Assembly: GCA_913060665.1 (NCBI GenBank)
Contig: CAJXUY010000011.1
Span: forward strand, 62,001 to 126,000
Direction of reading: 5' to 3'
From: an uncultured Oleiphilaceae bacterium
Lineage (GTDB): Bacteria > Pseudomonadota > Gammaproteobacteria > Pseudomonadales > Oleiphilaceae
DNA: 64,000 nt
Shown: one piece after another, positions 6,702 through 50,965 of the stretch
Position numbering within the stretch: the first letter of the stretch is position 1
Layout: each line of letters opens with the position of its first letter
The notes under the pieces: model-generated
Told to the model about the DNA's origin: nothing
The model's input: only the letters and a program-made list of their open reading frames with translations
The model's database searches: none
Program-made: the position numbers and the translations under genes

Positions 6702-7562
6702 CTAAAGTGCCCAGGATATTTCTCTAAAAATCATTTCTACTTGACCTAAAAAAACTGAAGAACCATGTTTAAGATGTATATCAGTGTGGAGGTCTCCATC
6801 TACCCGTATGCCATTTGTTGAGTTATGGTCTTTTAATATCCAGTGACCCTGATCATAAAAAAGATCAGCATGATGCTCTGAGACACTGGGCGTATTGATG
6901 GTAAACATACATTTGTGACTGCGACCAATGCTCATTGCTTGTTGTTGTGACTCCAAAGAAATCCCATAAATAGTCGGTGTATCGTTGTTAGGGTTAAATA
7001 CCAGCGCGGCAATATAAACCTGATCATCACCAACAAATCTATTTTGGATTCGTTGATCAATAAGCTCTAAATATTGTTTATTTGGCCCGCTCTGGAACAT
7101 TTTTTGGGTGACTGTATCATCTGCGGGCCAACCGTGCGGTAGTTTATATTCCTGCTGGATAACCGTTTCATTTGGGTCTTTGTTTTGTTCATCCATCACA
7201 ATAAACGAACTGTCTAATTTAGGTGCTGATGATTTGTTGGCAATCACTGTTGCATCACCCAAATGATCTGAATGTAAATAAAACCCAGCAGCTCCAAACT
7301 TAATAACATCACCAGAACGAACAGCGGTCGCCTTATAAATCCTTTGATTGTTAACAAAGGTACCATTGGTGGAGCCAAGGTCTTTTAATAGCAGTTGGCC
7401 GCCGCTCTGGATAAACTGCGCATGCTCTCGGGAGGGGTAGCCGAAGCCTAAAACAATATCGCAGCTCGAGTCTCGCCCAACAATACAGAGGCCTTCATTA
7501 ATTTTGAACTCGGCTCCATCATCCACGCTTTTGAGTGTTACATTAAGCATTGTATTGACCAT
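6702..7562 (-). CDS. Double FHA-domain protein, T6SS cassette
   Basis: 286 residues with two forkhead-associated domains, which bind phosphothreonine peptides. FHA1 spans about residues 20-95 (IVGRDSSCDIVLG, SREHAQ, LKDLGSTNGTFVNN). FHA2 spans about 205-280 (SIGRSHKCMFTI, SEHHADL, LKDHNSTNGIRVDG). Both keep the GR, S-x-x-H and N-G signature residues, so both are probably functional. The middle 100 residues are polar linker rich in Thr (TVIQQE, TVTQK) that could itself be phosphorylated. It is the last gene of the vgrG cassette, 20 bases after the TssB-TssC fusion gene. It presumably connects the cassette to the kinases at 31916 and 35358; that link is inference. Confidence 0.88.
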   Translation of the reverse strand: MVNTMLNVTLKSVDDGAEFKINEGLCIVGRDSSCDIVLGFGYPSREHAQFIQSGGQLLLKDLGSTNGTFVNNQRIYKATAVRSGDVIKFGAAGFYLHSDHLGDATVIANKSSAPKLDSSFIVMDEQNKDPNETVIQQEYKLPHGWPADDTVTQKMFQSGPNKQYLELIDQRIQNRFVGDDQVYIAALVFNPNNDTPTIYGISLESQQQAMSIGRSHKCMFTINTPSVSEHHADLFYDQGHWILKDHNSTNGIRVDGDLHTDIHLKHGSSVFLGQVEMIFREISWAL

Positions 7563-7582: not shown

Positions 7583-9076
7583 TTATTTGCTATTTAATGA
7601 GATCGACCCCAATTCAGGGATCAACACACTGTCTTTATTAAGTACAGACCTTATCGTTATAAGGCCGGCTGAGCGAAGCTGTATAGACGCTGAATCAAGC
7701 ATATTAATTTCTGCACATGGTGTTACTCTCGACTCTCCATCATCGTAATATACATGCAAGGGCAGCCGATCTATTTCCTGTACACTTACTTGCATATACC
7801 TTCCTGTCTGAGAATAGTTTTTGGCCATCACCAAGACGGCTAACCATGCCCCACAGCCCCATAGATAGTATGGATGCTTTATACCTGCAGGCAGTTCTTC
7901 AAATGCAAAATTATCGATAGGTGATGTTTTTTTACCGTAAGGCATTCTCGCCAAATAGCGAGGCGCGACAAGCGTAATATTTTGAGATTGAGGAGCTACT
8001 CTTAGCTCGTGCCATTTTTGTTTAAGCTCCGAGCTCTGAGAAAAATTCCAATCATCTTTATCGGGTGTCTGTGCAAGGTTATCACAACCTGCTAACTGCT
8101 CAGAGCCACCGGCAATACAGGTCGCATTAATCGCTCCAGCGATTTCACCCAAATGACTAAGTGCATCAAGATCTTGAACACTTCGACCAAATATGGTGTC
8201 TGTCATAATAATATTAAATGGCGAATTCCCGGCCGATTGACGACTTTCTACCAATAATTTATATCCATTACTTTGATCATAAGACGCTGAATTTTCAGCG
8301 TCATCAATTAGCTCTTGTGCACTAACATCTATAATAAACAGTTTTAACGCCCGATCAGTCTCAACTCTTCTAACCAGTAAATACAGACTGCGCCAAGCCG
8401 CTTCGATGGTTTGGAATTGCCGATGATGCATTAGTTTACGCATTAAATCACTTGAGGCGTTGTCCACTGTTTGAATATAGTCTTTTACATCAGGGTCGAG
8501 CTTAGGCGTAATATAAGGTGAGACGATGTCTTTGACCAAAGCCTGAACATCAATGCTATCAACAAATTTTGACGAGTCTTCACCTGATAAAATATCATCC
8601 AGTAATGACCCAGAGGGCTTATTTTCTGCTTGATTCTTAGCGGTCTGCTGATCCGACTTAGATAGCCTATATTCACCCCATTGCTTAATTTCGGAAACAG
8701 CCTCTGCATAAGTTGATTTATTCTTTAATTTTTTCTTAAGCCGCTTAAACTTATTAAAAAGCGGAATATGATCATATATAAAGTCTGGATGCATCTCATC
8801 CAGCTCAGAAAAGGCAATGGGCGCTTCTGCCAAAGGTAAAGCACACTGAACATTTAACTGTGCAAATACATCATCGAAGTTATCTCTATCTATCTCAATA
8901 ACCTTTCGCTCTTTAAGTAGTGCGGCATCATTGAGATTGCGATGATCTCTACCACTAAAATCAGCAAGCATTACGATATGACAATAACTATTATCGCCTA
9001 CCGAGGGCGAAGGCTGCTTAAAATCGTTCTTCGTTTCAAAAGGAACACTTCCTGTTGAAATAGTGGCACGTGACAT
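7583..9076 (-). CDS. TssB-TssC fusion, T6SS sheath-like protein
   Basis: 497-residue protein joining both sheath subunits. Residues about 30-130 follow TssB: MLADFSGRDHRNLNDAALL, KERKVIEIDRDNFDDVF and a charged helix near KFKRLKKKLKN. Compare MGDYSGDN and [17 protein letters not shown] in the TssB at 41228. From about residue 195 it follows TssC: RQFQTIEAAWRSLYLLVR, then VAPRYLARMPYGKKTSPIDN, matching [19 protein letters not shown] in TssC1. The TssC part ends early, so the fusion is much shorter than TssB plus TssC (174+496). The TssC signature VEFDQSQ region is also degenerate. ATG at 9076 follows AAGGAC. It may be a cap, chaperone or specialised sheath element of the VgrG cassette; its role is unknown to me. 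Confidence 0.82.
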   Translation of the reverse strand: MSRATISTGSVPFETKNDFKQPSPSVGDNSYCHIVMLADFSGRDHRNLNDAALLKERKVIEIDRDNFDDVFAQLNVQCALPLAEAPIAFSELDEMHPDFIYDHIPLFNKFKRLKKKLKNKSTYAEAVSEIKQWGEYRLSKSDQQTAKNQAENKPSGSLLDDILSGEDSSKFVDSIDVQALVKDIVSPYITPKLDPDVKDYIQTVDNASSDLMRKLMHHRQFQTIEAAWRSLYLLVRRVETDRALKLFIIDVSAQELIDDAENSASYDQSNGYKLLVESRQSAGNSPFNIIMTDTIFGRSVQDLDALSHLGEIAGAINATCIAGGSEQLAGCDNLAQTPDKDDWNFSQSSELKQKWHELRVAPQSQNITLVAPRYLARMPYGKKTSPIDNFAFEELPAGIKHPYYLWGCGAWLAVLVMAKNYSQTGRYMQVSVQEIDRLPLHVYYDDGESRVTPCAEINMLDSASIQLRSAGLITIRSVLNKDSVLIPELGSISLNSK

Positions 9077-9190: not shown

Positions 9191-10234
9191 TTATACCCCC
9201 AGTGCCTGTTTGATTTTTATCACATCAGGCCAGTCTAATTCTTCATCACCCTCGATGGCTAACCATGCTTCGTCCATAGCTTCGTCGTTCAGTATCCATT
9301 GGTTTTTTCTTAAGTTTTGCCCCGTTAATTCACTCAATACCTTGCCCGCAATACGGGCTAACTCAGGTAATTCCATTTGTTTTATAACCCAGGGTATGAG
9401 TGGTTTTTCATTCATGGCCGCCACCGCCAAGAGAAGATAACGCTCTGTATCCGGGCATGCTTTCAGCTCAGCCATCCATTGTTTAGCTTCATCGATTTTC
9501 AACTTAGAAAATACGAGTTTTAATGCAGCTTCTCGGTTTTCATTTTCCAGCAGAATAAAAGGTTTCAGTATAGGTAATGCTGAGGTATCCCCTAGTTTTA
9601 AGCGGGTTTCCAGCAATTCAAAATGGCTATCATCCAGTTGATTTTTTGGCTTTAGTGCTTGAAGAGTCGGCAGAATATTGGTGTCTTTATTTTTATGTGC
9701 GATCGCTAACAACAGCGGTAACTCGCTTGGTTTTTCTTCACTCAGGGTGCGTTTGAGTAAGTCATTAAATACAATGGGTAAAGATTTGTTGTGGGTATCG
9801 AAGCAAAATAAACCAATCGCAGCCATGGCACTTTGTTTAGCTGATATAAACTTGGTAGCCCAAAAACCACTTAAGTCCCAAGGGTGCCATGCTAAGCCAC
9901 AGGCAAAAGCCTCTAAAAGCAGAGCATCGCCTTGCGCCACTTCAGCCAAAGGCTTAATTTTTCCTAAGTCGCCCGCATAAAAGGCTAAATAAGAGGCAAC
10001 AAAAATTTCACCCGCATCATCGCCTTCTACTGCCGCTTCGCAATACTCATCAGCCGCTTTAGCATTGATCATCAAGCCTTCGAGGTTTGCATCTAAGCGA
10101 AGAACGACCCCTTTCAAATAGCCTGTATCAGTATTCGCAGCCTCGCATTCTGCTTGGTATTCACTATACAAATAGGATGCTTCATCAAAGTGTGCATTAA
10201 TCACTTCAGGAATGAAGGTTTGAACATCGGCCAT
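9191..10234 (-). CDS. TIGR02270-family T6SS-associated repeat protein
   Basis: 347 residues, soluble, almost entirely helical and Leu/Ala rich, like HEAT-type repeats. The N-terminal block around NAHFDEASYLYSEYQAE and the motif ACGLAWHPWDLSGFWATKF are characteristic of the TIGR02270 family, which is found in VgrG/PAAR neighbourhoods of T6SS loci. No catalytic motif is visible. It sits between the PAAR-like gene and the TssB-TssC fusion in a same-strand cassette; ATG at 10234 follows AAGG. A scaffold or adaptor role in effector loading is inferred from context only. Confidence 0.8.
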   Translation of the reverse strand: MADVQTFIPEVINAHFDEASYLYSEYQAECEAANTDTGYLKGVVLRLDANLEGLMINAKAADEYCEAAVEGDDAGEIFVASYLAFYAGDLGKIKPLAEVAQGDALLLEAFACGLAWHPWDLSGFWATKFISAKQSAMAAIGLFCFDTHNKSLPIVFNDLLKRTLSEEKPSELPLLLAIAHKNKDTNILPTLQALKPKNQLDDSHFELLETRLKLGDTSALPILKPFILLENENREAALKLVFSKLKIDEAKQWMAELKACPDTERYLLLAVAAMNEKPLIPWVIKQMELPELARIAGKVLSELTGQNLRKNQWILNDEAMDEAWLAIEGDEELDWPDVIKIKQALGV

Positions 10235-11764: not shown

Positions 11765-12313
11765 CTAAAAGCGATGTTTATCATTCCAACCATCAGCGGG
11801 CTTCATTAATAACCCAGATAATTTTGCCAGACTCAATTGTTGTTGAATCGTCTCAGATATAAATATAGCAAGTGGGAACTCGCTAGCCCTGAAAAGCTCT
11901 ACCATCTGAATATCAGCATCCAAAACTAATTTGTTAATTCTAACAATAACGTTTTTAAACTTTTTCAAGTCACTCGCATCCAGATCAATACAAGCAACAC
12001 GACCAACAACATTTAATATGTAATACCCTTGTAACTGACTATCTGGAAACTTAACCGTGACAGGAAATAGCTGATAGTTATCAACAGGTAACAACTTCCA
12101 TGCCTTTATGAAATTTTCACTCACTATAGGCGTTTCGTCTAGCTCAAAATAGTCAGGTAATGATGCATGGTTAGCTTCGAACTCAACCGTAATGTCACCC
12201 CCAAATTTAGGGTCAAGTAATTCTCCTTCAGTGAAGTCTAACCCCCAGCCTGAACTTTGAAAGGATATTCTTCCTACTAGCTTATGATGTTCGCACTCTA
12301 ATATATAAAACAA
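11765..12313 (-). CDS. Imm11-family-like protein, probable immunity protein
   Basis: 182 residues. The pattern SENFIKAWKLLPVDNYQLFPVTV and the following strand-rich block resemble the Imm11 (DUF1629) immunity family often coded next to AHH-type toxins. No signal peptide or membrane segment is seen, so a cytoplasmic location is expected, suitable for blocking a nuclease. The start is TTG at 12313 after a strong AGGAGAGG; no ATG occurs in the first part of the frame. It lies 13 bases after the AHH gene stop, in the order effector then immunity. Cognate pairing is inferred from position. Confidence 0.72.
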   Translation of the reverse strand: MFYILECEHHKLVGRISFQSSGWGLDFTEGELLDPKFGGDITVEFEANHASLPDYFELDETPIVSENFIKAWKLLPVDNYQLFPVTVKFPDSQLQGYYILNVVGRVACIDLDASDLKKFKNVIVRINKLVLDADIQMVELFRASEFPLAIFISETIQQQLSLAKLSGLLMKPADGWNDKHRF

Positions 12314-12326
12314 TTAACCTCTCCTT

Positions 12327-13130
12327 TTAGAATGGCCCAGTATCGAGCGAAGGTTTTGGGTATTCAATTAATTTATCTACGTTCCCTTTACCCATTTCGG
12401 TGCGACTTGTATTATTCGCACCTCTCACAGTAAAGCTCTGTGTAGTGGGCGCTTTATATATTGATTCAGCTAACGTTCTCTCACTATCGTGAAGGTCCCA
12501 TCCATCATCTTCGATTGAAGACAACTGAATAAACGCATAATTCTCTGCCTGCCCAATCAATTCCTTTAAATCATCTTCCATTTCTTGGTGTGAATTTTCT
12601 TCGCATAGGTCTACATTGGATATAATTTTAAGCAGTCGAGTCACTAATCTATTACATTCAAGAAAGTAATCTTCGTCATGTCCTGGCCCATGAAGTTGCA
12701 GCGGTTTTGCCTCGTCAAGGGCCTCCCAGAATGGGCTAAAAGCCCCATAACTCTTACGAGCAGGGAGGCCGATGCAGTTTTCTGCTCTATTAGGAGAAAA
12801 GCCTACTTTACTTAAAAAATGGTTTAATTTTTTATTTTTATCTGTAGGTGTCTTAGTATTTGAACCAAAAGCAAATGACGATAACGCAATACAATGATGC
12901 CCTTGGTATTCATAAGTTGGTGGAAATGTGTCGCTAGGGTAAATAGCTTCTTTCGATGCTATTTTCTCGAAAACTCCTTGCATTGATTTTCGCTGCCACC
13001 CTTTATCAGTTGGTGCAACTTCCTTAATTTCTTCAATTTTAGGTTCTTCGTGAGACCCTCCACAGAAAACACACTTATCCCCGTCTACTGTAATGACACT
13101 TACAGCAACCGCTTCTCCAATATCAGTCAC
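12327..13130 (-). CDS. AHH-type HNH/EndoVII nuclease, probable T6SS effector
   Basis: About 267 residues. Residues 77-79 give the core G-H-H (YEYQGHHCIALSSF), followed by LNHFLSKVGFSPNRAENCIGLP and LHGPGHDEDYF. This is the AHH nuclease layout of two His, an Asn-bearing loop and a later His. A CVFC pair at about residues 20-23 could bind zinc. Expected action is DNA cleavage in the recipient cell. The best start is GTG at 13130, which has AAGGAG six bases upstream. A GTG at 13145 is possible but would overlap the DUF2169 gene. It follows the DUF2169 chaperone-like gene directly and precedes the Imm11-like gene, the normal order of an adaptor-effector-immunity module. Confidence 0.8.
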   Translation of the reverse strand: MTDIGEAVAVSVITVDGDKCVFCGGSHEEPKIEEIKEVAPTDKGWQRKSMQGVFEKIASKEAIYPSDTFPPTYEYQGHHCIALSSFAFGSNTKTPTDKNKKLNHFLSKVGFSPNRAENCIGLPARKSYGAFSPFWEALDEAKPLQLHGPGHDEDYFLECNRLVTRLLKIISNVDLCEENSHQEMEDDLKELIGQAENYAFIQLSSIEDDGWDLHDSERTLAESIYKAPTTQSFTVRGANNTSRTEMGKGNVDKLIEYPKPSLDTGPF

Positions 13131-13131
13131 A

Positions 13132-14199
13132 TTAGACTCCTTCACTCATGCTTTGCATTCCATTATTACCTGCAACTTGAGGGCTGCGTTTAACGTCGAC
13201 ACGTACCTCACTCACTTTAAGTGGCTTTTTATTACAGTTAAACGCCGTTTTCCAAATAAGACAAAAACGATTTTCATCAGGCTCAATCAAAATAGTTTCA
13301 ATCGCAACAGGTGAGTCCTGCCACTGCCCGTTGAATTTAAAAGCCGCGGCTATTGGGCAAACAGGTAACGTAAACTGAATATCGGGCTGGCCTTTCATGA
13401 GATTAACTAAACGAACAGACTCACCACCAAAGAACGTACTTCGCTCAAAGCTTAAGTTAGTAGAGCCATTTAGAAAGAAGCGCTCATCAAAATCGGTTGG
13501 TAAAAAAGGGGCGCGAGTTTTCGACCATAGTTCATCATAGGTACCTGCATAATTCTTGCGCGGTGCCCATGCCCCAGGGGTGTAACCATAAGTTGCTGGG
13601 CCGGGTTTATCTTGTGGCGTTCGAATCAGAAAGTTTGGGTCTTCGAGATTAGGTAAACGCTGCCCTATCATATCGTTATTTTGTCGCGTACCTATAAACC
13701 CCAGCCCTAGCGGATTTTGATCAAACGAAAGCGCTGAATCCGGCCCAATAGGTTGATCTGGCTGAAAGTGATGAACCCCACCAAACGCGTTTTCGTAGAT
13801 CAACGCCATTTTTTCAAAAGGCTGTGGCGATGATTGCCCACCGTGAATCCATAATCGGTCACCAAAAGCGCGTACTGTTTTTGAAGCATTCCCTATAGAA
13901 AGGTATGTATCAATAACACTAACTTGCTGCCCCTCAGGCGCATAAGCGTGGCCATTTAAGATGACATCTGAACCCGGCTTTGGCAGTAACATTTCAGAAG
14001 CATAAAGCAGGCTAGAACTAGCTGGGTCACCTAAATACTTGTCCTCGAGGCACAAAGGCACTTGCTCTGCCGACAATGACACCATAGGAGATAGAGTAAA
14101 CGTGGCTTTGACGGCCAACACCACCACATCAGCCCCTTTAGGGTCGGTAGTCAGCATAATCTGACTATCAAAAGGGGTTTTATTGTCTAACTGAAGCAT
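13132..14199 (-). CDS. DUF2169 T6SS adaptor/chaperone-like protein
   Basis: 355 residues of the DUF2169 family, known as T6SS accessory proteins that sit between vgrG and effector genes and help load effectors. Visible family features: N-terminal DPKGADVVVLAVKATFTL, LPKPGSDVILNGHAYAPEG, AFGDRLW, FEKMALIYENAFGG and the FNGSTNLSFER block. Soluble, no signal peptide. ATG at 14199 follows AAGGAATC. Its stop TAA is one base from the GTG start of the nuclease, so expression is probably coupled. The neighbouring AHH nuclease is the likely client; this is inference. Confidence 0.88.
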   Translation of the reverse strand: MLQLDNKTPFDSQIMLTTDPKGADVVVLAVKATFTLSPMVSLSAEQVPLCLEDKYLGDPASSSLLYASEMLLPKPGSDVILNGHAYAPEGQQVSVIDTYLSIGNASKTVRAFGDRLWIHGGQSSPQPFEKMALIYENAFGGVHHFQPDQPIGPDSALSFDQNPLGLGFIGTRQNNDMIGQRLPNLEDPNFLIRTPQDKPGPATYGYTPGAWAPRKNYAGTYDELWSKTRAPFLPTDFDERFFLNGSTNLSFERSTFFGGESVRLVNLMKGQPDIQFTLPVCPIAAAFKFNGQWQDSPVAIETILIEPDENRFCLIWKTAFNCNKKPLKVSEVRVDVKRSPQVAGNNGMQSMSEGV

Positions 14200-14235: not shown

Positions 14236-14736
14236 TTAATTTAGCTGGATAGAGCCGCTTTTAATTTTGTATGAGCCAGAGGTACGATTAAGCATGTGCT
14301 CTCCTTTGACCAAAATCTTTCCATTTTTATTAAGCGTAATACTGGCTTTCCCACAACGAAGTGTAATTTCTTCAGTCGCCGATAGTTCTAGTTTCTTGCC
14401 ATCGGCAATAACTTCAGCCTGCTCATTTATGTTGCCGTCATTAGTTTCAACAGGCCGCGGTGCGAGCACATCATCTAGTGCGCGGCGTATTATTCCCATC
14501 ACTATCGCCATACCCCCATTATTTTGAGCAAATGAAATAGCAACCTCTTTACCAATGGAACCTTGATCTAAAGGTACTGTGGTTAAAGCCTCAATAGGGC
14601 TTTTTCGAGTCTGTTCGTCGTATGCTATTAAGGGGTTACCGTGGCTATTTAATGAAACCACCTTTCCGATCAACAACGAACCAGCACTATTAGACGTGCC
14701 AGGTAAGCCGGAGTCAGGCGCTGTTTGAGAATACAT
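14236..14736 (-). CDS. DUF6484-domain protein, VgrG-associated
   Basis: About 166 residues. The N-terminal half fits the DUF6484 family (LLIGKVVSLNSHGNPLIAYD). The C-terminal part (LSATEEITLRCGKASITLNK, then a KILVKGEH-type strand) repeats the beta-helix style of the VgrG tail coded just upstream. It may thus pack against or extend the spike. ATG at 14736 with GGGAG five bases before is preferred over the GTG at 14748, which would start four residues earlier without a spaced ribosome site. It starts 15 bases after vgrG ends and is followed by the DUF2169 gene. Confidence 0.8.
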   Translation of the reverse strand: MYSQTAPDSGLPGTSNSAGSLLIGKVVSLNSHGNPLIAYDEQTRKSPIEALTTVPLDQGSIGKEVAISFAQNNGGMAIVMGIIRRALDDVLAPRPVETNDGNINEQAEVIADGKKLELSATEEITLRCGKASITLNKNGKILVKGEHMLNRTSGSYKIKSGSIQLN

Positions 14737-14750
14737 AACGTCTCCCACCT

Positions 14751-16751
14751 TTAATTCTGTGTTATTTTACTGCCTTTAATCGCAACAGCACCGGAACCTT
14801 TAACGTTAATCTTCCCACCACTAATAGTGATATCGCCATTTTTCTTCATTGATATCTTGGCTTTTCCGACCTTAATGGTGATTTCAGTATCTGCAGAGAG
14901 CTGTATATTTTTAGCTTTCAGAGCATAATCTTTGGTGACCTGTTCAGAATGGTCTCCACCTATATTTTCAGTTAAGTCTTCTGATACATCCAGGCTGTAG
15001 TTGTTTCCGATTGAGTCGGTTTGGTCTCCTGCGACTGATATGTACTGGTCTTTTCCGACATCTAAAGAGCGGTTTTCTCCAACCGATACTGCCATTGCCT
15101 TACCTATTGACTCGGTATGGTTGGCTCCAATCGATATCGTTGTATCATTACCAACTGAGTGGGAGCGGTCATTACCAATACTCTCCACAGAGTCATTACC
15201 TACACTGATATCTTGGTTATTCTCAACCACGAGTTGTTCATCTTTTTCTGCGTGCAGATAAAAAAGCTCTTTGCCCTTTTCATCTTCAAAACGAAGCTCA
15301 TTGTAGTTTTCGGTGCCAGCCCCCTTAGTAGACCGCGATTTAATACCGCTAATGGCCTTATTGGCGGGCAGGTCGTAGGTAGGCATTTGATCTGCGTTAT
15401 ATACACTGCCCACCACTATAGGCCTGTCTGGATCACCCTCCATAAAGGAGATAAGTACCTCTTGACCCACTCTGGGCAGAAATTGGGCTCCCCATTTTTT
15501 GCCGCTCCACACTTGCGCCACTCGAATCCAACAGGAGCTATTTTCGTCTTTTTTGCCTAGGCGATCCCAAAAAAACTGGACTTTTATCCTTCCAAACGTA
15601 TCGGTATAGATCTCTTCAGCAGAGGGGCCCACCACAATGGCGGTTTGTGAACCACTAATATACGGCTTCGAACGTGTTACTTGTGGGCGAAGAACCGTTT
15701 TCTCAGGCACGCACTGGAATTCATTACTATAATTGAACGTACCTGCATCGCCTGACCGATAGCTCCCCTCATTAGCACTGTGAGAAATCGAGGATACGAC
15801 AAACTTCTTTTTTGCCTCAGCGGTGTCGGTATGACGGCCCACCTCAAAACTATAACCCGGCGCCAATTCTGGGTAGTCGCTATTCGCAGTCACTATACTG
15901 TGTGTCGTTTCAATTGATTCCATTCGCGCTCTGGCAATAGCCTTCCCTCTTGCATTGTCACTATAGGCACCAGGAAAATCATACTGTTCAAATTGAGCTA
16001 TGTTGGGTAAGTCGACTTTAGTTTGCATCTCTTCCATAAGTGATGATTTAGGTGCCTGAAAATCATAGTCAGTATGGCTCACTGCGCCACTACAAAAATT
16101 ATAACTATGTTTCCAACGGCTTATTTTATGGTCAGTATGGGTGCCATCAATAACATCAATGGGGTTCAAAGATACTTTTTCATAAGCGGTTGAATAATCA
16201 GACAACATTAATGTGTGCTTTTTCTTTTCATGTTTGAAAAAGTAGTAAATACCTTCTTCTTCCAGCAAACGAGTAACAAAAGCCAAGTCTGTTTCACGGT
16301 ATTGCACACAATATTCACGAGGGCTATAAGTTGAACCCAACTTCCAAGAAAAATCGTTAAAGCCTAACCCCTTAAAGACTTCATCAATAATGTCTGGCAC
16401 CGACATTTCCTGAAAAATACGGCAGTCAGACCGATACTCTAACAGGTTAATCCAAGGTACCATACTAACCTGATATTGACGGAATTTGCTTTCAACAACG
16501 CCGCCAACAGAAAGACTACTAACAACACCTGAGAAGTAACGATCTGTACCATCGTTGCCCGCTATAGAGCAGCATATACTTTTACCAATCAGTTTCGTTT
16601 GATCTATTTTGTCTTCTTCAGTAATTACCTGAAACGAAAAATGAAAGGGTTTAGATACAGACTCCTGCCCGCTCATACTTTGAACCAAGAATATATCGGT
16701 ACCTAATGGCGTATCGAGTTTGATGCGCTGTTTATCTTGAGTAATCGCCAT
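14751..16751 (-). CDS. vgrG: T6SS spike protein VgrG (TssI)
   Basis: 666-residue trimeric spike protein. Residues about 1-350 carry the gp27-like base (FLVQSMSGQESVSKPFHFSF, RETDLAFVTRLLEEEGIYYFF). Residues about 370-480 carry the gp5 OB-fold with the usual GRIKVQFFWDRLGKKDENSS, WIRVAQVWSG and GDPDRPIVVGSVYNADQ. From about 510 to 625 runs a needle of short repeats of the form S-(I/V)-G-(N/E)-x-x-x-x-S, ending in a DUF2345-like KAKNIQLSADTEITIKVGKA segment. No effector domain follows, so this is a structural VgrG that carries separate effectors. It heads the minus-strand cassette down to 6702. Its 5' leader contains a terminator-like hairpin at 16846-16897. Confidence 0.96.
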   Translation of the reverse strand: MAITQDKQRIKLDTPLGTDIFLVQSMSGQESVSKPFHFSFQVITEEDKIDQTKLIGKSICCSIAGNDGTDRYFSGVVSSLSVGGVVESKFRQYQVSMVPWINLLEYRSDCRIFQEMSVPDIIDEVFKGLGFNDFSWKLGSTYSPREYCVQYRETDLAFVTRLLEEEGIYYFFKHEKKKHTLMLSDYSTAYEKVSLNPIDVIDGTHTDHKISRWKHSYNFCSGAVSHTDYDFQAPKSSLMEEMQTKVDLPNIAQFEQYDFPGAYSDNARGKAIARARMESIETTHSIVTANSDYPELAPGYSFEVGRHTDTAEAKKKFVVSSISHSANEGSYRSGDAGTFNYSNEFQCVPEKTVLRPQVTRSKPYISGSQTAIVVGPSAEEIYTDTFGRIKVQFFWDRLGKKDENSSCWIRVAQVWSGKKWGAQFLPRVGQEVLISFMEGDPDRPIVVGSVYNADQMPTYDLPANKAISGIKSRSTKGAGTENYNELRFEDEKGKELFYLHAEKDEQLVVENNQDISVGNDSVESIGNDRSHSVGNDTTISIGANHTESIGKAMAVSVGENRSLDVGKDQYISVAGDQTDSIGNNYSLDVSEDLTENIGGDHSEQVTKDYALKAKNIQLSADTEITIKVGKAKISMKKNGDITISGGKINVKGSGAVAIKGSKITQN

Positions 16752-31915: not shown

Positions 31916-33292
31916 CTAGCTCTTAACTTTTTTAAGAAATGTCTGTTGTTCGTCTGAATCGGGGATATAACTTGCAAGATTACTATAAAAATCATCAATA
32001 TTAGAAGCCTTCTTAAAAGCCTTCTTCACCAACCGACTTGCTAACGGCCCAATAAAAAATGCCAGTTCTCCGGTCACCGTCTGTAGCTTTTCAGGCGACA
32101 GAGTTAGTGCTTGCTGGCTTTTGCCTGTTTTATTAAGCGACTTAACTAGCGAGACCCCACTTCTGGACTCAGCCTCCCTTGCCATCGAAATTTCATATAG
32201 CCCGGAAATATTGAGTGAGCGCAAAAATTCTGTTCGCTCCTCATCATTTGGGATTTGCTTAGCCAAACTCGCCGAGAGGTCTTGCAATGACATATTCTGT
32301 TTACTATATTTTCTCACAAGCATTTTGGCTGTAGGGCCAACAAATCGGATCAAACTATTTTCAAGTGTAGAGAGAACATCTGGGTGCAGCGACTCGTCTG
32401 CGCTTACCTCGGGTGACTTTGCAATTCTAACCACCTTCGTGGGCTGATAAATTACGGTTCCCTGCTCCGTTCCCGACTGAGACATTACATTAATAAGTTT
32501 ATTCAAAAACTCTGATGCATGTTGAAAGCGTAATTCAGGCTTAGGTTGCAAGGCCTTTTGAATAATAGGTTTAATCTGCGCTTTGCACGCCACATCGAAC
32601 ATATCACTTTGGGCCAATGGTTCCATGGCCTCTTCAAGATCAATCCCTTTGTATGGCCGTTGTTGTGTCAGCAATTCAAACAGCAACACACCTACGCTAT
32701 ATAAGTCTGAGCGATTATCAACAACAAAACCATGTAACCCTTCTGGCGACATATAGTTCGGCGTTCCCACCATCATGCCTGTACTGGTTAAGTCCGAATT
32801 ATCCAAACGAGCGACACCAAAGTCAGACACCTTTACACGTCCGTTATCCATTAACATGATATTCGCAGGCTTAATATCACGGTGAACAACACCATTTTCA
32901 TGGGCGTAAGCCAATGCTTCCAATATTTGAGAAATAATATCCAGTGCAGCGACAAATGAGAATGTTTTATCATTCTGCATCTGTTCCTTCAACTCAGCCC
33001 CGTCAACATATTCCATCACAATGAAAGGCGTAGAACGCTGAACCCCAAAATCAAAAACCGTCACAATATTGGGGTGAAGACAGCGTGCGGCAGCCTTAGC
33101 CTCTTGAATAAAACGTTGTTCGAAATCTTTCCCTTCATCACCCTCTAGCAAATGTGCATGAAGCACTTTAAGCGCTACAGTTCGCTCAATAGCTGAATCA
33201 AACGCTCGATAAACAACTCCCATTGCGCCTTTGCCCAAAACGCTTTCGATTTGATACTTTCCAATCGACTGAGGAATTTCGTTTTTTTGCAT
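31916..33292 (-). CDS. Ser/Thr protein kinase with tandem C-terminal repeat domain
   Basis: 458 residues. Residues about 12-270 are a complete Hanks-type kinase: glycine loop GKGAMG 20-25, Lys42 in VALK, HRDIKPAN 137-144, DFG 157-159, SPE in place of APE. No membrane segment follows, so it is cytosolic. Residues about 303-360 and 399-456 align with each other without gaps (FVGPTAKMLVRKYSK / FIGPLASRLVKKAFKK, and LAKQIPNDEE / LASYIPDSDE), a duplicated module of about 58 residues whose function I do not know. It probably phosphorylates TagH or another FHA partner. It follows the haem-motif sensor gene by 42 bases. Confidence 0.93.
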   Translation of the reverse strand: MQKNEIPQSIGKYQIESVLGKGAMGVVYRAFDSAIERTVALKVLHAHLLEGDEGKDFEQRFIQEAKAAARCLHPNIVTVFDFGVQRSTPFIVMEYVDGAELKEQMQNDKTFSFVAALDIISQILEALAYAHENGVVHRDIKPANIMLMDNGRVKVSDFGVARLDNSDLTSTGMMVGTPNYMSPEGLHGFVVDNRSDLYSVGVLLFELLTQQRPYKGIDLEEAMEPLAQSDMFDVACKAQIKPIIQKALQPKPELRFQHASEFLNKLINVMSQSGTEQGTVIYQPTKVVRIAKSPEVSADESLHPDVLSTLENSLIRFVGPTAKMLVRKYSKQNMSLQDLSASLAKQIPNDEERTEFLRSLNISGLYEISMAREAESRSGVSLVKSLNKTGKSQQALTLSPEKLQTVTGELAFFIGPLASRLVKKAFKKASNIDDFYSNLASYIPDSDEQQTFLKKVKS

Positions 33293-35357: not shown

Positions 35358-36806
35358 TTAACGCGGAGCATGTTCAATTGTTTCTACTAGCTCCGAGAAA
35401 ATTCGTGCATCAGGAAACACTTCTAACCCCGCCTTTGCTGTAAGCAACGCTCGGTCATGATCTCCCGTTTCAACATATTGATTAGCCTTATCAACCAACG
35501 CTATCTCAACATCAACAACCCCCTGTAATGCATCATTATTATCAGGGTCAATCGATAATACGATTTTATATGCATCATAGGCATTGGAGCCTGGCGGCGA
35601 AACTAGCCGCCCGATTCGCTTATAAGTCTCTGCCACCTTAAACAGTTTAGCTATCTTCGCTGATTTTTCCGTACTTAGTGATTCTACTTGGCGTGCCCCA
35701 TCACTACTTTGACCTGAAGACTCAACAACCCCGCCACCTGTGATCAACCGTCTATACCCTTGATTGGTCTCAGCATTGCCAGAATTTTCGACAACTTCTT
35801 CCATTCCAGTTTTACGACTTTCATTAATGAGCTTGGGGCCTAGGTTTTGCGTCCCGTCAAAAGCAAAAACTACAACTAGAACTCCAAGTGCCACAACGGA
35901 AACAACCGCCCCGCCCAGCTTAACCAACAACCCAGAGCCCGGTACAGCGCTATTAGAAGGGTGAAGCGTAAGAGAAGACAAAAACTCCTCCGCACTCTGA
36001 AAACGATCTGCTGGTTTCTTTGCCAAGGATTTTTTTAAAATTTTATCAATATGTGTCGGTATATAAGTCTGAGCGACAGTAGATGCTGAAAGCGCCTCTA
36101 CATTTATTATTTTTTGTGTAATTGCAGTAGTCGAGTCCGCATTAAAACAATATTTCCCCGTTAACATTTCATATAAAATAATGCCTACTGCAAACAGGTC
36201 CGATCTCGCATCTGCGGGTTCTCCAACACACTGTTCAGGAGACATATATTTGGGGGAGCCAATAACGGTTCCTACCTGTGTCATTTCTGAATTATCTAAT
36301 TTTGCGACACCAAAATCTGCTATTTTGGCCACCCCATCGCTAGCAACAAATATATTAGCAGGTTTAAGGTCTCTGTGAACAATGCCATGCTGATGAATTC
36401 TAGAAAGCCCACTTAATACATTCGAAATAATCTTAAGGCTTTGATCTAGGGTGAAGTGCATCTTTTCATCAAGCATGTGTTTAAGCTCCTGCCCCTCAAC
36501 ATACTCCATAACAAAGAAAGGCCCCCCTTCTTTCTCTCCCGCATCAAAAACTGCAACAATATTTGGATGTGTTAACTTTCCAGCTGCCCGCATTTCATTT
36601 TTAAAACGCTCTCTAAACTCCCCTGAAGGACAGTCATCCAACAGCGCTTTATGAACCGTTTTTACAGCCACCATTCGCTGAAAATCGGGGTCATAGCACT
36701 TATAGACCTTACCCATAGCCCCTTCGCCTAACTCTGAGATCACCTGATACTTCCCAAAAGAAGCACCCTCTCCCTGAGCGGCTGGAATAACGACTGTATC
36801 TGACAT
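35358..36806 (-). CDS. Membrane-anchored Ser/Thr protein kinase (PknB/PpkA type)
   Basis: 482 residues. Kinase domain about 18-280: GEGAMG 27-32, Lys49 in AVKT, HRDLKPAN 144-151, DFG 164-166, SPE 189-191. One membrane segment at about 294-316 (KLGGAVVSVVALGVLVVVFA) places the last 165 residues in the periplasm; these end in a helical TPR-like stretch (DPDNNDALQGVVDVEIALVD, ETGDHDRALLTAKAGL). This is the layout of PpkA-like kinases that sense periplasmic events and drive T6SS activity. ATG follows TTAGG. It is 34 bases after the Sel1-caspase gene and starts the sensor-kinase run. Confidence 0.93.
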   Translation of the reverse strand: MSDTVVIPAAQGEGASFGKYQVISELGEGAMGKVYKCYDPDFQRMVAVKTVHKALLDDCPSGEFRERFKNEMRAAGKLTHPNIVAVFDAGEKEGGPFFVMEYVEGQELKHMLDEKMHFTLDQSLKIISNVLSGLSRIHQHGIVHRDLKPANIFVASDGVAKIADFGVAKLDNSEMTQVGTVIGSPKYMSPEQCVGEPADARSDLFAVGIILYEMLTGKYCFNADSTTAITQKIINVEALSASTVAQTYIPTHIDKILKKSLAKKPADRFQSAEEFLSSLTLHPSNSAVPGSGLLVKLGGAVVSVVALGVLVVVFAFDGTQNLGPKLINESRKTGMEEVVENSGNAETNQGYRRLITGGGVVESSGQSSDGARQVESLSTEKSAKIAKLFKVAETYKRIGRLVSPPGSNAYDAYKIVLSIDPDNNDALQGVVDVEIALVDKANQYVETGDHDRALLTAKAGLEVFPDARIFSELVETIEHAPR

Positions 36807-41227: not shown

Positions 41228-41752
41228 ATGTCTGATAGCTTACAAGATAAACTTTCGCGCGTACGGAAACCGCGCGTACATATCACCTATGACGTCGAAA
41301 CCAATGGAGCTCAAGAAAAGAAAGAGCTGCCATTCGTTGTAGGTGTCATGGGAGACTATTCAGGTGACAATACTGCGTCAAAGAAAGCACTAAAAGAACG
41401 AAAGTTTGTCCAGATCGATAGAGATAATTTTAACGATATCATGGGCAAGGTAGAACCTACGGCAGATATTAAAGTAGATGACAAGCTATCAGGTGAAGAT
41501 GGCAAGCAAATGGGCGTGAATTTGCAATTTAACTCTATTGAAGATTTCGAGCCACAAAATGTGGTTAATCAAATAGAACCTTTAAAGCAGCTATTGGAAG
41601 CACGCAACAAACTCCGCGATCTTATGAGTAAAGCTGATCGGTCTGATGAGCTTGAAAGCGTACTAGAAGAAGTACTCAAGAATGCAGATTCAATCGCGTC
41701 ACTATCAAATGATCTAGGTATAGAAGCCGATAAGCCAGAAGGAGCAGAGTAA
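41228..41752 (+). CDS. tssB: T6SS sheath small subunit TssB
   Basis: 174 residues, family length. Markers: [49 protein letters not shown] and the C-terminal helix that packs with TssC. With TssC it forms the contractile sheath. ATG follows GAGGG; the stop shares one base with the tssC start (TAATG), so subunits are translated in step. Confidence 0.97.
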
Positions 41753-43242
41753 TGAGTGAGACAGAAGCACAAGGTCAAGGAGCAGAAGCGCAAGAAGCCG
41801 AAGCACTCAGTTTTCTGGATCAAGCTATCGGTGCGACAAAGCAAACCGAACCTGATGCAGCAAAAGATTTACTGGCCAACCTGACCAAACAGGCTATGGC
41901 AGGCACCGTCACCTGGGATCGAAATCTTACCGTAACGATTGATAGAGCTGTCAGCAAAATTGACCAATTAATCTCTGAGCAATTAGCAGAGATCATGCAC
42001 AGCGAAAAATTCCAGAAATTGGAAGGTTCCTGGAGAGGTATGCATCACTTGGTAATGAACTCCGAAACGGGTTCTTCACTCAAGATTAGGATGCTCAATA
42101 TCAGCAAAAAAGAACTCTTCAAAGACCTTGATAAAGCAGTGGAGTTTGATCAAAGCCAAATATTCAAAAAAGTATATGAGAGCGAATTTGGCATGGCCGG
42201 TGGCGAGCCATACGGAACCCTTATTGGTGATTATGAGTTTACTAATCACCCGGATGACATAGATTTACTAAGCAATATGTCGGGTGTAGCTGCAGCAGGT
42301 TTTTGTCCATTTGTTTCAGCTGCTGGCGCTGAAATGTTTGGCTTTGAAGACTTCACTGAGCTTTCAAACCCTCGTGACCTTGAGAAGATATTTGAATCTC
42401 AGGAGTACATTAAGATGCGTAGTTTCCGCGAGTCTGAAGACTCCCGTTTCGTATCGCTAGTGATGCCCCGCGTGTTGTCGAGACTTCCTTACGGTGATGC
42501 ATCCAAACCAGTAGAAGAGTTTCGATACGAAGAATTCCCTTTAGATGAAAATGGTAAATCACTTGATGTTGCTCATGATCAATATGCATGGATGAACGCG
42601 GCTTACGCCATGGGCACAACTCTGACGCAAGCATTCTCACAGCATAGCTGGTGTACGGCTATTCGAGGTGTTGAAGGCGGCGGCAAGGTTGAAGGTTTAC
42701 CTTCTCACTTGTTCAAGAGTGATGATGGCGACATGGACCAAAAGTGCCCAGCAGAAATCGGAATTACAGAGCGTAGAGAAGCAGAGTTATCGAAAATGGG
42801 CTTCCTTCCACTCTGCCATTTCAAAAACACTGACTACGCCGTATTTTTTGGCGCACAAACCATGCAAAAGCCTAAGAAGTATGACGATAATGCTGCAACC
42901 GCTAATGCAGAAATTTCAGCTCGTCTTCCTTATGTTATGGCCACGTCTCGTATCGCCCATTATTTGAAAGTAATGGCACGTGACAAGATTGGCTCTTTCA
43001 TGGAAGCACAAGATGCGGAGCGTTGGTTAAACCGTTGGATCAATACCTATACCAACAGCAACCCTGACGCCAGTGCCGAAATGAAGTCAAAGTTTCCATT
43101 AGCAGAAGCTCAAATCAAGGTTCAGGAGAACCCAGGCGCTCCAGGATCATACAGCGCTGTTGCTCACCTAAAACCATGGTTACAGATGGAAGAGTTAACT
43201 GCATCTCTACGAATGGTTGCTGATATCCCTAAGTCGGGCTAA
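41752..43242 (+). CDS. tssC: T6SS sheath large subunit TssC, main copy
   Basis: 496 residues, full length. Markers: [87 protein letters not shown] and the C-terminal [18 protein letters not shown]. All parts needed for sheath assembly and ClpV recognition appear intact. It is followed by a strong terminator at 43252 and then by a second tssC. Confidence 0.97.
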
Positions 43243-43371: not shown

Positions 43372-44856
43372 ATGCTTTCAGCCACAACAGTACAAATACT
43401 TCAATTGATGGAATCAAGATTTGCTCCCGGTAGCGACTCACTCACGTCGACTAAACATCTACTTACAGACGTCATAACGAGTATAGAAAGTGCAGGGTAT
43501 GCTAGACCAGAGTCGACAGAGGATTTTTGGTTATGGATCAATCGAACCATCGCTGAAATTGACTCAAAAATTACAACTCAACTCAATACAGTACTTCACG
43601 ACCCTAAAGTAATTCAGCTTGAAAGCACCTGGCGCAGCTTATTTGATCTCGTTAACTTCTCTATAGGCCGCAAAAACATTAAAATACGAGTACTCGATAT
43701 TAGTTGGTCAGAGATCACCAAAGACGTCAATCGAGCCGTTGAGTTTGACCAAAGCCAACTATTTCAAAAAGTATATAGCAATGAGTTTGATATTCCTGGA
43801 GGAGAACCTTACGGCACACTAATCGCCGACTTCAGCATTTCTCACAAACCTACGCCTGAACATCGCTACAATGACATACCTACAGTAGAGCGCCTAGCAG
43901 AAATTGCAGCAGCATCATTCTCTCCGCTACTCATAAATGCCTCTCCTCAACTCTTTGGGTTAGACGACTTTGACCTGTTAACACAACCTATAAACTTCCA
44001 CGATATTTTTCAAGAAACTGAATATCAAGCCTGGAATCGTTTACGAGTGCACTCAGACACCCGTTTTCTTGGCATCACATTGCCTCGAATCCTAATTAGA
44101 GCACCATACGCGATTAAAGTAGATTCGGTAGGAGGCATCAGGTATGAAGAATCAACCGCTTATGCTTCCAAGAAAAACTATGTTTGGGGTAAAGCGAACT
44201 TCGCCCTGGCCAAAGTCCTGATTAGAGAGTTCTCAGAAGTCGGCTGGTTCTCTCACATTCGAGGAGTGCCAAGAGATAAATTAGCGGGTGGTGTTGTTCC
44301 GAATTTAACCGTTGATTACTTTTCAACGGATTGTGGAGCCGTTGCAGATAAACCAATAGCCGACATTATTATTTCAGACAATAAAGAGCGGGAGCTAAGC
44401 GAACTAGGCTTTATTCCATTCTGCCAATGTTACGATTTAGCCATGGGCGCATTTCATACAACACCCTCTTTACACAAACCCAAAATATATGAAGACCGGC
44501 AAGTAACCATCAATGAAAAGGTCGCATCGTCCTTACAACATGTTCTGTGTGGTTCACGCTTTGCACACTACATTAAGGTCATGGCTAGAGACAAAATTGG
44601 CTCTTATGTCAGAGCTGACGAATGCGCATCCCTCATTCAAAACTGGCTTAATGGATATACCGTATCTCAAGAAGATGCAGAGTGGCAAATGCAGGCAAAA
44701 TACCCCCTGCGTAATGCATCTGTAGATGTTAAAGAGAGCCCCGACAAACCAGGTTCTTATTGGGTCGATATCAATCTACAACCTCACTATCAGGCTGACA
44801 GCCTGGTATCCGAATTACACCTTACTACTGAGCTAACGCCACCGCGTTTAATGTAG
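43372..44856 (+). CDS. Second TssC-type sheath subunit
   Basis: 494 residues, full length, clearly Tss[88 protein letters not shown] and ESPDKPGSYWVDINLQPH. It differs from TssC1 widely in surface loops and has a shorter N-terminus. No second tssB lies beside it, so it would use TssB1, form a cap or alternative sheath segment, or act in sheath length control. Separated from tssC1 by a terminator and 88 bases. Ribosome site is weak. Confidence 0.92.
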   Translation: MLSATTVQILQLMESRFAPGSDSLTSTKHLLTDVITSIESAGYARPESTEDFWLWINRTIAEIDSKITTQLNTVLHDPKVIQLESTWRSLFDLVNFSIGRKNIKIRVLDISWSEITKDVNRAVEFDQSQLFQKVYSNEFDIPGGEPYGTLIADFSISHKPTPEHRYNDIPTVERLAEIAAASFSPLLINASPQLFGLDDFDLLTQPINFHDIFQETEYQAWNRLRVHSDTRFLGITLPRILIRAPYAIKVDSVGGIRYEESTAYASKKNYVWGKANFALAKVLIREFSEVGWFSHIRGVPRDKLAGGVVPNLTVDYFSTDCGAVADKPIADIIISDNKERELSELGFIPFCQCYDLAMGAFHTTPSLHKPKIYEDRQVTINEKVASSLQHVLCGSRFAHYIKVMARDKIGSYVRADECASLIQNWLNGYTVSQEDAEWQMQAKYPLRNASVDVKESPDKPGSYWVDINLQPHYQADSLVSELHLTTELTPPRLM

Positions 44857-48286: not shown

Positions 48287-50965
48287 ATGTTCAACGTTAA
48301 TTTAAAAGCACTAGTTGAAAGGATGAACCCTACACTCAAAGACGCACTGGATAATGCAGCCGGCTTATGTCTGAATAAGGGTCATTACAATATTGAAATT
48401 GAGCACTGGCTACAAAAGATACTTGAAAAGTCAGATACTGATGCTGAAAAAGTCATTAGCCACTTTGGAGGCAATGTGGGCAAAGTCCTTTCTGAGTTAA
48501 CCACTGCTTTAGATAAACTAAAGTCAGGCAACACCAGAACGCCTTCACTGTCACAAACACTTCAGGAATCAACTAAGTATGCCTGGATGATTGCTTCGGT
48601 CGATATGTCACACGGCAGTATCAGCTCAGGACACCTACTTGCAGCAGTACTTAATGATGACTCATTAAGAAGACAGCTGGTCGAATCTGCCCCTAGCCTC
48701 AACCAAATACCCTCTGAGGATGTGCGAGCTATAGTTCAGACAACATTTGGTACTACGACTGAATCCAGGCACGAATCACGTACGCCTGCTGTTGAAGGCG
48801 AAGCCCCCATGCCTGGCGCAACGGGTGGTTCAGCCTTAAGTAAATTTACAGTAAACTTGACAGAAAGAGCAAAAAATAACGAGATTGATCCCGTGCTTGG
48901 GCGCGACTCAGAGATCAGACAATGTATAGACATCCTTACCCGCCGTCGCCAAAACAACCCCATTTTCACAGGTGAGGCGGGAGTTGGTAAGACGGCTGTA
49001 GTCGAAGGGCTTGCCTTGCGCATTGCAAATGATGATGTACCAACACCACTAAAAGGTGTCGCCATTCACTCTTTAGACCTTGGTTTACTGCAGGCAGGAG
49101 CAAGTGTTAAAGGTGAATTTGAAAACCGATTAAAGTCGGTTATTGAAGAGGTAAAGGCCTCTCCGGCCCCCATCATTATGTTCATTGATGAGGCCCATAC
49201 ACTTATTGGTGCAGGAGGAAAAGAAGGGCAAGGAGATGCAGCCAATTTACTTAAGCCGGCTCTTGCCAGAGGTGAGTTACGCACTATCGCCGCCACTACA
49301 TGGGCAGAATACAAAAAATATTTTGAGCGTGACCCTGCATTAACTCGTCGCTTTCAAGTCGTTAAAGTTGAAGAACCCACAGAGTCTGTCGCCATCGATA
49401 TGATGAGAGGTATCTCAACCTCACTACAGCATCACCACAAAGTTAGAATTTCTGATGATGCAATCATACAAGCAGTTAAACTATCAGCACGTTATATCCC
49501 CGGAAGACAGCTCCCAGACAAATCAGTCAGCTTGCTCGACACTGCAGCCGCCCGAGTAGCGTTAAGCCTAAGCGCTACACCGTCAATAATCGAAGACACT
49601 CGACGTCGCATTCAACAACTTGACACCAATCTCGCAATGTTGAACCAAGAAAATGCCTCTACTGGCCTTTGCGAAGAACAAATAACAGAGGCAGAAACCG
49701 AAAAAGCAACGGCATTGCTTGAACTAGAAGCACAAGAGCAACAACTGGAAAAAGAAAAGCTCATAATAGAACAAATTCGCGCTATTCGAGATGACATTGA
49801 AACGGACTATTTTGCTAGCACAAAAGCTCCAGATGACAGTGAAGAAAACGAAGGTCGCCTCTCCCCTGAACAACTGTCAGAACTACAGAAAAAGTTGAAG
49901 TCTCTCGATAATGAGTTGGCTGAGATTCAACAGGAATGCCCCTTGATGCAACCCCACGTTGATGGCCAAGCAGTCGCTGATGTTGTTGCTAACTGGACAG
50001 GCATCCCTGTTGGGAAAATGGTTGGTGACGAAATCAACGCGATACTAGAATTAAAAGATCAGTTGGAAGACCGAGTGATTGGTCAATCACATGCATTGGA
50101 GGCCATCTCACAAGCTATTCGCACATCCAGGGCGGGGTTAACAGACCCAAGAAAACCTATAGGGGTTTTTATGATGGTTGGGTCCAGCGGTGTAGGCAAA
50201 ACAGAAACAGCTTTGGCGCTTGCTGATACGCTCTTCGGGGGAGAACAAAACATCACCGTTATCAATATGTCTGAATTCAAAGAAGAACATAAAGTATCAA
50301 TGTTGCTCGGTTCCCCTCCGGGTTATGTCGGCTACGGCGAAGGCGGTGTTCTGACTGAAGCAGCAAGACGTAAACCTTACTCTGTCATTCTACTTGATGA
50401 AATGGAGAAAGCTCACCCGGGTGTTCAGGATGTGTTCTATAACCTCTTTGATAAGGGTACGATTAAAGATGGTGAAGGCCGAGATATCGATTTTAAGAAT
50501 ACTGTAATCATTATGACTTCAAATGCAGGGGAGCAAGCTATTCGGGCCATTTGCGCGCAAGGTGAAGAAAGACCAGACCCTGAAGTGCTTTTGGATAGCA
50601 TGCGTCCAGAGCTACTGAAGTCGTTTAAGCCAGCTTTTCTTGGGCGAGCCAATGTCATCACCTACTACCCGCTTGATGATGAGAACCTTATGAAGATCTG
50701 TAAGATCAACATGAACCGAATTGAAAAGCGAATCCGGGAACATTACAGCGCTGAGTTTAGCTATGATGAAGATGTTATCCTTCATATCGTCGCCAGGAGC
50801 CAGGAAGTAGATACAGGCGCACGTAACATTGAAACTATCCTTAATAGGTCACTATTACCTGAACTTGCGGCTGAGTGTTTAGGGCGAATGGCTGAGGGCG
50901 AATCAATAAATAAGGTCCATATAAACGTCAACGACCAAGATATGTTTAACTACCAGATCAGTTAA
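48287..50965 (+). CDS. tssH: T6SS sheath-disassembly ATPase TssH (ClpV)
   Basis: 892 residues. Clp N domain about 10-160 (SQTLQESTKYAWMIAS), AAA1 with Walker A GEAGVGKT near residue 229 and MFIDEAHTLIGAGG, a coiled-coil middle about 430-530, AAA2 with Walker A GSSGVGKT near 632 and VILLDEMEKAHP. It recycles contracted sheaths by unfolding TssC. ATG follows AGGATAAT. Last core gene of the plus-strand run. Confidence 0.97.
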   Translation: MFNVNLKALVERMNPTLKDALDNAAGLCLNKGHYNIEIEHWLQKILEKSDTDAEKVISHFGGNVGKVLSELTTALDKLKSGNTRTPSLSQTLQESTKYAWMIASVDMSHGSISSGHLLAAVLNDDSLRRQLVESAPSLNQIPSEDVRAIVQTTFGTTTESRHESRTPAVEGEAPMPGATGGSALSKFTVNLTERAKNNEIDPVLGRDSEIRQCIDILTRRRQNNPIFTGEAGVGKTAVVEGLALRIANDDVPTPLKGVAIHSLDLGLLQAGASVKGEFENRLKSVIEEVKASPAPIIMFIDEAHTLIGAGGKEGQGDAANLLKPALARGELRTIAATTWAEYKKYFERDPALTRRFQVVKVEEPTESVAIDMMRGISTSLQHHHKVRISDDAIIQAVKLSARYIPGRQLPDKSVSLLDTAAARVALSLSATPSIIEDTRRRIQQLDTNLAMLNQENASTGLCEEQITEAETEKATALLELEAQEQQLEKEKLIIEQIRAIRDDIETDYFASTKAPDDSEENEGRLSPEQLSELQKKLKSLDNELAEIQQECPLMQPHVDGQAVADVVANWTGIPVGKMVGDEINAILELKDQLEDRVIGQSHALEAISQAIRTSRAGLTDPRKPIGVFMMVGSSGVGKTETALALADTLFGGEQNITVINMSEFKEEHKVSMLLGSPPGYVGYGEGGVLTEAARRKPYSVILLDEMEKAHPGVQDVFYNLFDKGTIKDGEGRDIDFKNTVIIMTSNAGEQAIRAICAQGEERPDPEVLLDSMRPELLKSFKPAFLGRANVITYYPLDDENLMKICKINMNRIEKRIREHYSAEFSYDEDVILHIVARSQEVDTGARNIETILNRSLLPELAAECLGRMAEGESINKVHINVNDQDMFNYQIS

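Follow-up and report, generated by a model that had tools for sequence, protein, structure and literature searches.

The 64,000-nt window analysed here (positions 62,001 to 126,000 of contig CAJXUY010000011.1 from an uncultured Oleiphilaceae bacterium) encodes, on the minus strand at 7583..9076, a 497-residue protein in which a TssB-like part is fused to a truncated TssC-like part. The reading that we favour, with a probability of about 0.45, is that this TssB-TssC′ fusion is a sheath pseudo-protomer of the type VI secretion system (T6SS), which engages the ClpV motor, most probably at the sheath. Domains 2 and 3 of TssB and TssC would fold as one chain without the handshake (inner-wall) domain of TssC, the ClpV recognition helix would be held out in a flexible linker, and the fusion would not build a sheath through the normal handshake. 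It would recruit or meter the ClpV disassembly motor and so set sheath recycling. The observations concern the gene and its family, the predicted fold with its missing domain, the conservation of a linker motif, the covariation of this motif with the type of ClpV, gene order and selection; from them we infer binding to ClpV, attachment to the sheath, and either help or restraint of the motor.

The open reading frame (ORF) of the fusion starts with ATG. The Pfam profile T6SS_VipA matched residues 34-132 (8681..8977, minus strand) with 38 bits against a cut-off of 24, and the profile VipB matched residues 199-485 (7622..8482, minus strand) with 175 bits against a cut-off of 27. In a profile-profile comparison with hhalign, residues 26-130 were aligned on residues 30-142 of TssB with an E value of 4.9e-21; residues 1-29 of TssB, the handshake arm, had no recognised counterpart in the fusion. 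A first-pass annotation, made from the sequence alone, had described one protein with a TssB-like N-terminus and a truncated TssC-like C-terminus, and these matches confirm it. The fusion stayed below the curated NCBIfam equivalog cut-offs for TssC/VipB (TIGR03355, 168.1 versus 271.5 bits) and for TssB/VipA (TIGR03358, 31.4 versus 97.25 bits), and the match to TIGR03355 ended at position 342 of the 473 in the profile.

The AlphaFold2 model of the fusion (predicted local distance difference test 88) shows a single-chain sheath protomer with middle and outer domains, and residues 1-26 have very low confidence. The sheath fold expected by the first-pass annotation was thus found, both in the model and in fold matches to the Protein Data Bank (PDB). 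It is present in the N-terminal domain as well, and helices of the fusion match the outer tri-helical bundle of the sheath domains. The chain stops at the equivalent of residue 387 of TssC1, and the handshake domain is the part of TssC1 after about residue 387. Neither a C-terminal arm nor an acceptor sheet was seen in the fusion by structure comparison. As modelled, the protein is without the C-terminal handshake domain of TssC and without a recognisable N-arm of TssB. On this account, the fusion should not polymerise normally, and the missing domain argues against its polymerising around Hcp as a sheath subunit. A short helix is predicted at residues 158-164, within the low-confidence linker between the two halves.

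Relatives were collected by scanning a set of genome contigs with an alignment of 12 fusions. This gave 575 pattern matches and 457 relatives, a count in which true TssC is not separated out, and the best 80 were kept; a scan of the same contigs with a single fusion protein found no relative. Together with L038-L041 and L043-L049, these 80 make up 91 other loci. Gene picking missed the fusion of L129, so that the alignment statistics refer to 90 fusions and that of the window (91 rows), and L053, L054 and L076 repeat other rows, which leaves 88 distinct fusions. Gene-order counts refer to 87 loci (without L053, L054, L076 and L129, and not counting the window), and gene statistics leave out L042, L132 and L133. 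L042, from Vibrio THAF191d, proved to be an ordinary tssB-tssC pair.

In all 80 kept loci, a single ORF covers the family profile, beginning at position 1-32 and ending at position 493-510 of 511, with 466-795 bits; a few of these ORFs reach the edge of their contig. True TssC proteins in the same loci reached at most 235 bits, in the TssC part alone. Chance or a sequencing artefact is ruled out as the origin of the fusion by the uninterrupted ORF in 80 of 80 loci and by the E value of the TssB half. According to the record titles, the relatives come from Gammaproteobacteria, deltaproteobacterial groups, Acidobacteria, Planctomycetota and Nitrospirota. In a maximum-likelihood tree of the TssC part, whose root is not known, the 88 distinct fusions lie on one side of a branch with support 100/100, and the 32 TssC, both tandem types among them, lie on the other. 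The fusions are an ancient family, one clade apart from TssC. The ratio of nonsynonymous to synonymous substitution rates (dN/dS) was 0.03-0.24 in 9 of 11 close pairs, where computable, several of them with saturated dS. A C-terminal LxGxW ending was observed in 71 of the 88 fusions; it is missing from the fusion of the window (7583-7630) and from its nearest kin, L050 and L052. A P-D-x-D-D-W-like signature (30/88 fusions, 0/29 TssC) was dropped as a family-wide mark, since it marks only part of the family.

The linker between the two halves is variable except for a motif of the form hydrophobic-Leu-Asp/Glu-x-x-hydrophobic. In the fusion of the window, this motif is LLDDIL at residues 158-163 (8588..8605, minus strand). 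The expression was chosen after inspection of the linkers; in its strict form, it occurs in 76 of the 91 rows and in 73 of the 88 distinct fusions. When the linkers were shuffled in 200 rounds, the motif appeared in 0.75 of the 91 on average and in 4 at most. The motif LLDEIM of Vibrio cholerae VipB binds the N-domain of ClpV, and TssC proteins with the motif co-occur with ClpV whose groove is without the charged pair Arg6/Asp87, according to the available part of one study (PMC4239648). Judged by its sequence, the linker of the fusion matches the TssC-type ClpV-binding motif of the LLDEII class. This motif is the strongest lead to the function of the fusion, and it was absent from the first-pass annotation.

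The two groove positions (6 and 87) were read in ClpV of the same loci or genomes. The strict motif is present in 30 of the 36 fusions accompanied by a ClpV with an uncharged groove and in none of the five accompanied by a charged Arg6/Asp87 ClpV. These five belong to two clades, L038-L040 on the one hand and L088 with L106 on the other. A similar relation was seen with the first TssC, where readable: when this TssC carries the motif, so does the fusion at 15 of 16 loci, and when it does not, the fusion has it at none of 4; tandem TssC2 and N-terminally cut TssC were left out. The Fisher values of 0.0006 (ClpV type) and 0.001 (TssC motif) ignore kinship and reflect few independent changes. ClpV was searched for in 30 chosen genomes or records with a fusion, motif-poor and motif-bearing, and was found over the curated cut-off in 22. 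The other eight comprise seven metagenome bins or records uncultured by title and one Eleftheria plasmid record. The later reading of the groove took 21 of these loci, including L114 with a partial ClpV below the cut-off; two other ClpV over the cut-off were without the N-terminus, and the ClpV of L088 was counted once. L091, a motif-poor locus near L088 and L106 in the tree, gave no ClpV over the cut-off. Separately, the Eleftheria terrae plasmid NZ_CP106952.1 (L041/L164) holds a T6SS cluster with a motif-less TssC and a motif-less fusion; no ClpV match was found on this whole 784-kb record, which is the plasmid only and not the chromosome.

In plasmids of Ruegeria, Qingshengfaniella and Parasedimentitalea (L038 11598-15746, L039 11991-15656 and L040 11946-15695), one frame encodes a complete TssB, a long acidic repeat-rich stretch, the fusion and an acidic tail. 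These giant Rhodobacterales proteins have 1221-1382 residues, and their TssB heads are 39.5-41% identical to TssB of the window. The acidic repeat region is rich in LDDLL, and the tail ends with MD(P/A)(E/D)L(A/Q)ALL(A/E/D)DL; a similar tail is found in the Eleftheria protein of L041. The deposited starts fall downstream of the TssB part and so miss it. In L039 and L040, the TssB head shares its N-terminal segment with the TssB of the same cluster; tssB of L038 is cut by the end of the locus. In Pseudomonas aeruginosa, TagJ/HsiE1 binds residues 8-30 of HsiB1 with contacts including Lys9, Phe10 and Arg18, and it also contacts ClpV1, as described in the consulted part of PMC4239648. The heads of the giant proteins have Lys-Phe and then Arg eight residues past Phe, the spacing of HsiB1, as compared with the published residues and not with the HsiB1 sequence. 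TagJ is annotated in the clusters of the giant ORFs.

Because a TagJ-binding segment seems to be gained and the strict motif is absent, the Rhodobacterales protein may have exchanged one tag for the other, in a class in which ClpV is presumably recruited by another route. The TssB head might also become part of the sheath and keep the remainder of the giant protein on a leash. Counter-cases exist: the fusions of L113, L114 and L122, which occur with TagJ-like genes and a TssC that carries the motif, have retained it or a close variant of it. A wider proposal is put forward only tentatively. The fusion might be a new T6SS component of several phyla, a sheath subunit without its polymerisation domain that serves as a dedicated ClpV adaptor; in Rhodobacterales it would have switched from the TssC-type tag to the TssB/TagJ-type tag, with a sheath-built TssB head tethering it by the long acidic leash.

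The neighbourhood was examined in flanks of at most 10 kb, or less where the contig ended sooner. Neighbours were named by profiles seeded with proteins of the window or of the plasmids, by which very divergent genes may be missed, and Pfam checks were made at a few loci. At least three T6SS core or associated genes were recognised in 39 of the 87 loci, and at least one in 52. Of the 25 loci that hold tssH (clpV), 20 have the fusion gene at most three genes downstream of tssH, and in 12 the fusion gene follows tssH directly. VgrG is encoded within three genes of the fusion, on either strand, in 13 of the 87 loci. Genes for DUF2169, DUF4150, PRK06147 and DUF6484 were recognised at two of the 91 other loci (L052 of Aliikangiella and L099 of a deltaproteobacterium), both of which contain an AHH-type gene too, with a weak match in L052; TIGR02270 was recognised at one of the 91. 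Thus clpV is a commoner recognisable neighbour of the fusion than the genes of this set. At the VgrG-linked locus L087, a Pfam check showed DUF4123, another adaptor type, after VgrG, and DUF4280, instead of the set. The acidobacterial locus L097 has mostly housekeeping-type neighbours (GidA, ParA, ParB, AIR-synthase-like and TatC) and no T6SS part.

In the window, the fusion is the ninth of ten genes on the same strand. It is preceded by genes for VgrG (14751..16751), DUF6484 (14236..14748), DUF2169, a PAAR chaperone of the TvpA type (13132..14199), an AHH-type nuclease and an Imm11-like immunity protein (11765-13145), the KAS-like PRK06147 (10630..11694), a PAAR-like tip protein of the DUF4150 type (Pfam Tox-PAAR-like, PF13665; 10257..10637) and a TIGR02270-like protein (9191..10234). 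A two-FHA-domain protein (6702..7562) follows 20 nt downstream. DUF6484 corresponds to a TvpC-like protein and PRK06147 to the TvpD type in the naming of PMC13373197, as far as its accessible part goes. The PAAR, KAS-like, TIGR02270-like, DUF2169 and FHA neighbours listed in the first-pass annotation were all recovered, PRK06147 and TIGR02270 below their curated cut-offs. A promoter scan of the cassette was uninformative (26 sites versus 24.4 expected), so that membership in an operon rests on strand and spacing. The tie of the fusion to a PAAR cassette, taken as a general rule, did not survive the co-occurrence search: linkage with DUF2169/DUF4150 is not constant, and since these neighbours were recognised at two of the 91 other loci, the association with the cassette is local, recurring in Aliikangiella and in a single deltaproteobacterium.

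Several points weigh against the favoured reading. The correlation between motif and ClpV depends on two clade-wise changes. Six of the 36 fusions with an uncharged ClpV are without the strict motif; by inspection, L127, L103, L072, L049 and L114 are one substitution off it, and in L063 it is lost. Among seven motif-poor loci whose ClpV was first read in the later set, only L106 was charged (Arg/Asp), and the 87 position is aligned uncertainly in three Hahella genomes (L043, L047 and L051). Descent from TssC might by itself account for the motif, and a genuine end piece of the sheath would require a ClpV tag as well. Many family members carry short N-terminal patterns of their own, for example ISTGxIxF, in the first 35 residues or so, and this segment might be a diverged arm. 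In addition, no T6SS core gene was recognised in the flanks of 35 of the 87 loci, and presence is patchy in the genus, where four other genomes have TssC-like matches and no fusion.

The main rival is a terminal sheath element on the first or last ring, on the baseplate or cap side, which would end or seed polymerisation and carry the ClpV tag for stripping. Domains 2 and 3 are kept, with the helices of the outer bundle, the acceptor strands are missing as they might be in a chain terminator, the N-terminal patterns could be the diverged arm, and VgrG is near in some loci. On the other hand, there is no C-terminal arm or acceptor sheet, the arm of TssB is unmatched, and the occurrence is too patchy for a universal end piece: in a phylum sample of 398 genomes, with at most three candidates scored per genome, TssC over the cut-off was found in 88 and the fusion in three, all three also with TssC (G360 from this search was excluded as a read-through of separate tssB and tssC). 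A terminal element is considered unlikely, though to be taken seriously. The fusion may still be the cap suggested in the first-pass annotation, but the C-terminal handshake domain that links subunits is absent.

A soluble decoy, which would sequester ClpV and slow or delay sheath disassembly, accords with a ClpV tag that is free, on a subunit not expected to polymerise, and with a gene near clpV. It seems improbable, however: the full TssB head in Rhodobacterales could enter the wall of the sheath and so suggests a role bound to it, and the measured affinities of TssC peptides for ClpV are weak, 26 and 39 µM in the part of PMC5048182 at hand. Hardly more plausible, if not slightly less so, is a loading factor for one VgrG-PAAR spike within the Tvp chaperone set. 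The single same-strand run in the window and the similar sets in L052 and L099 speak for it, whereas the rarity of these genes at other loci and the lack of a described sheath-like Tvp member speak against it. That the fusion is a functionless, decaying leftover of duplicated tssBC, as its truncation and patchiness in the genus might indicate, is already contradicted by the single clade over several phyla, by the low dN/dS and by the uninterrupted ORFs, and is given almost no weight. A phage origin was rejected: PHROGs gave no match for the two family members tried, and viral predicted structures matched weakly (best E value 5.2e-3), the best among the matches listed being mostly tail sheath or unnamed.

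The core T6SS cluster lies about 32 kb from the fusion on the other strand, with a full tssB (41228..41752), a full tssC1 with the N-terminal motif FLDQAI (41752..43242) and, directly after it, a second, divergent tssC2 (43372..44856), all on the plus strand, in accordance with the first-pass annotation. The tandem of tssC1 and tssC2 recurs in fusion-bearing Pseudomonadales loci. The tssH/clpV gene (48287..50965, plus strand) encodes an uncharged groove (Leu6, and Ser at the 87 position), and no other ClpV of the source genome scores above the curated cut-off; the same genome has a second tssB-tssC pair (contig C5, 119530-121326) despite this single ClpV. Inside the cluster, a caspase-domain protein with Sel1 repeats is encoded beside Ser/Thr kinase genes (36841-38682, 31916-33292 and 35358-36806). 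Shortly past clpV is an IS200-like Y1 transposase gene (51069-51770), a relative of which stands directly upstream of the fusion in T6SS clusters of Microbulbifer.

Work on the T6SS has yet to explain how ClpV is directed to the correct sheath at the proper moment and which factors limit the recycling of sheaths. A naturally occurring sheath protomer expected not to link to its neighbours, with a ClpV tag that tracks the type of ClpV, may offer a genetic handle on ClpV targeting. The family defined here consists of a single ORF, TssB-like and then truncated TssC-like, in one clade apart from TssC. The first-pass annotation knew of no described role, and no characterised family was found in the profile and structure libraries or in the literature, a search without most subscription papers and all preprints; in that literature, the phrase "fused TssB" occurred once in each of two papers. 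No such fusion protein was found by word search in the available parts of PMC9230969 and PMC9113992. An earlier description may exist elsewhere. The Rhodobacterales and Eleftheria forms are annotated as "sheath large subunit" in deposited records; such annotation merges the fusion with TssC, so that fusion genes can be miscounted as extra TssC.

The fusion resembles TssB/TssC (VipA/VipB) in domains 2 and 3, by sequence and by fold, and in the N-terminal ClpV motif of TssC, but it is a single chain, is without the TssC handshake domain or a recognisable TssB arm, and forms its own clade. TssC2, which presumably resembles TssC40/ImpD, is likewise a TssC paralogue in the same cluster, whereas it is full length, has no TssB half and groups with TssC, and no ClpV motif was seen at the N-terminus of the copy in the window. 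The sheaths of R-pyocin, PVC and Afp are also single chains; in the structure alignment, however, residues 1-22 and 278-385 of R2 pyocin, which we take to hold its arms, have no counterpart in the fusion. The N-terminal residues of R2 pyocin hold its N-arm, according to the available part of PMC5807055. Tvp Class II systems resemble the window in their spike-loading set, which the DUF6484, DUF2169, PRK06147 and DUF4150 genes match, but differ in that no sheath-like member is described in the accessible part of PMC13373197, where sheath, TssB and TssC occur in general descriptions only, sheath also in the references. TagJ/HsiE, a T6SS accessory for which recruitment of ClpV to the sheath has been proposed, is similar in its presumed task; it has an ImpE-type fold and binds the TssB N-terminus in the part of PMC4239648 consulted, whereas the fusion itself carries the TssC-type tag.
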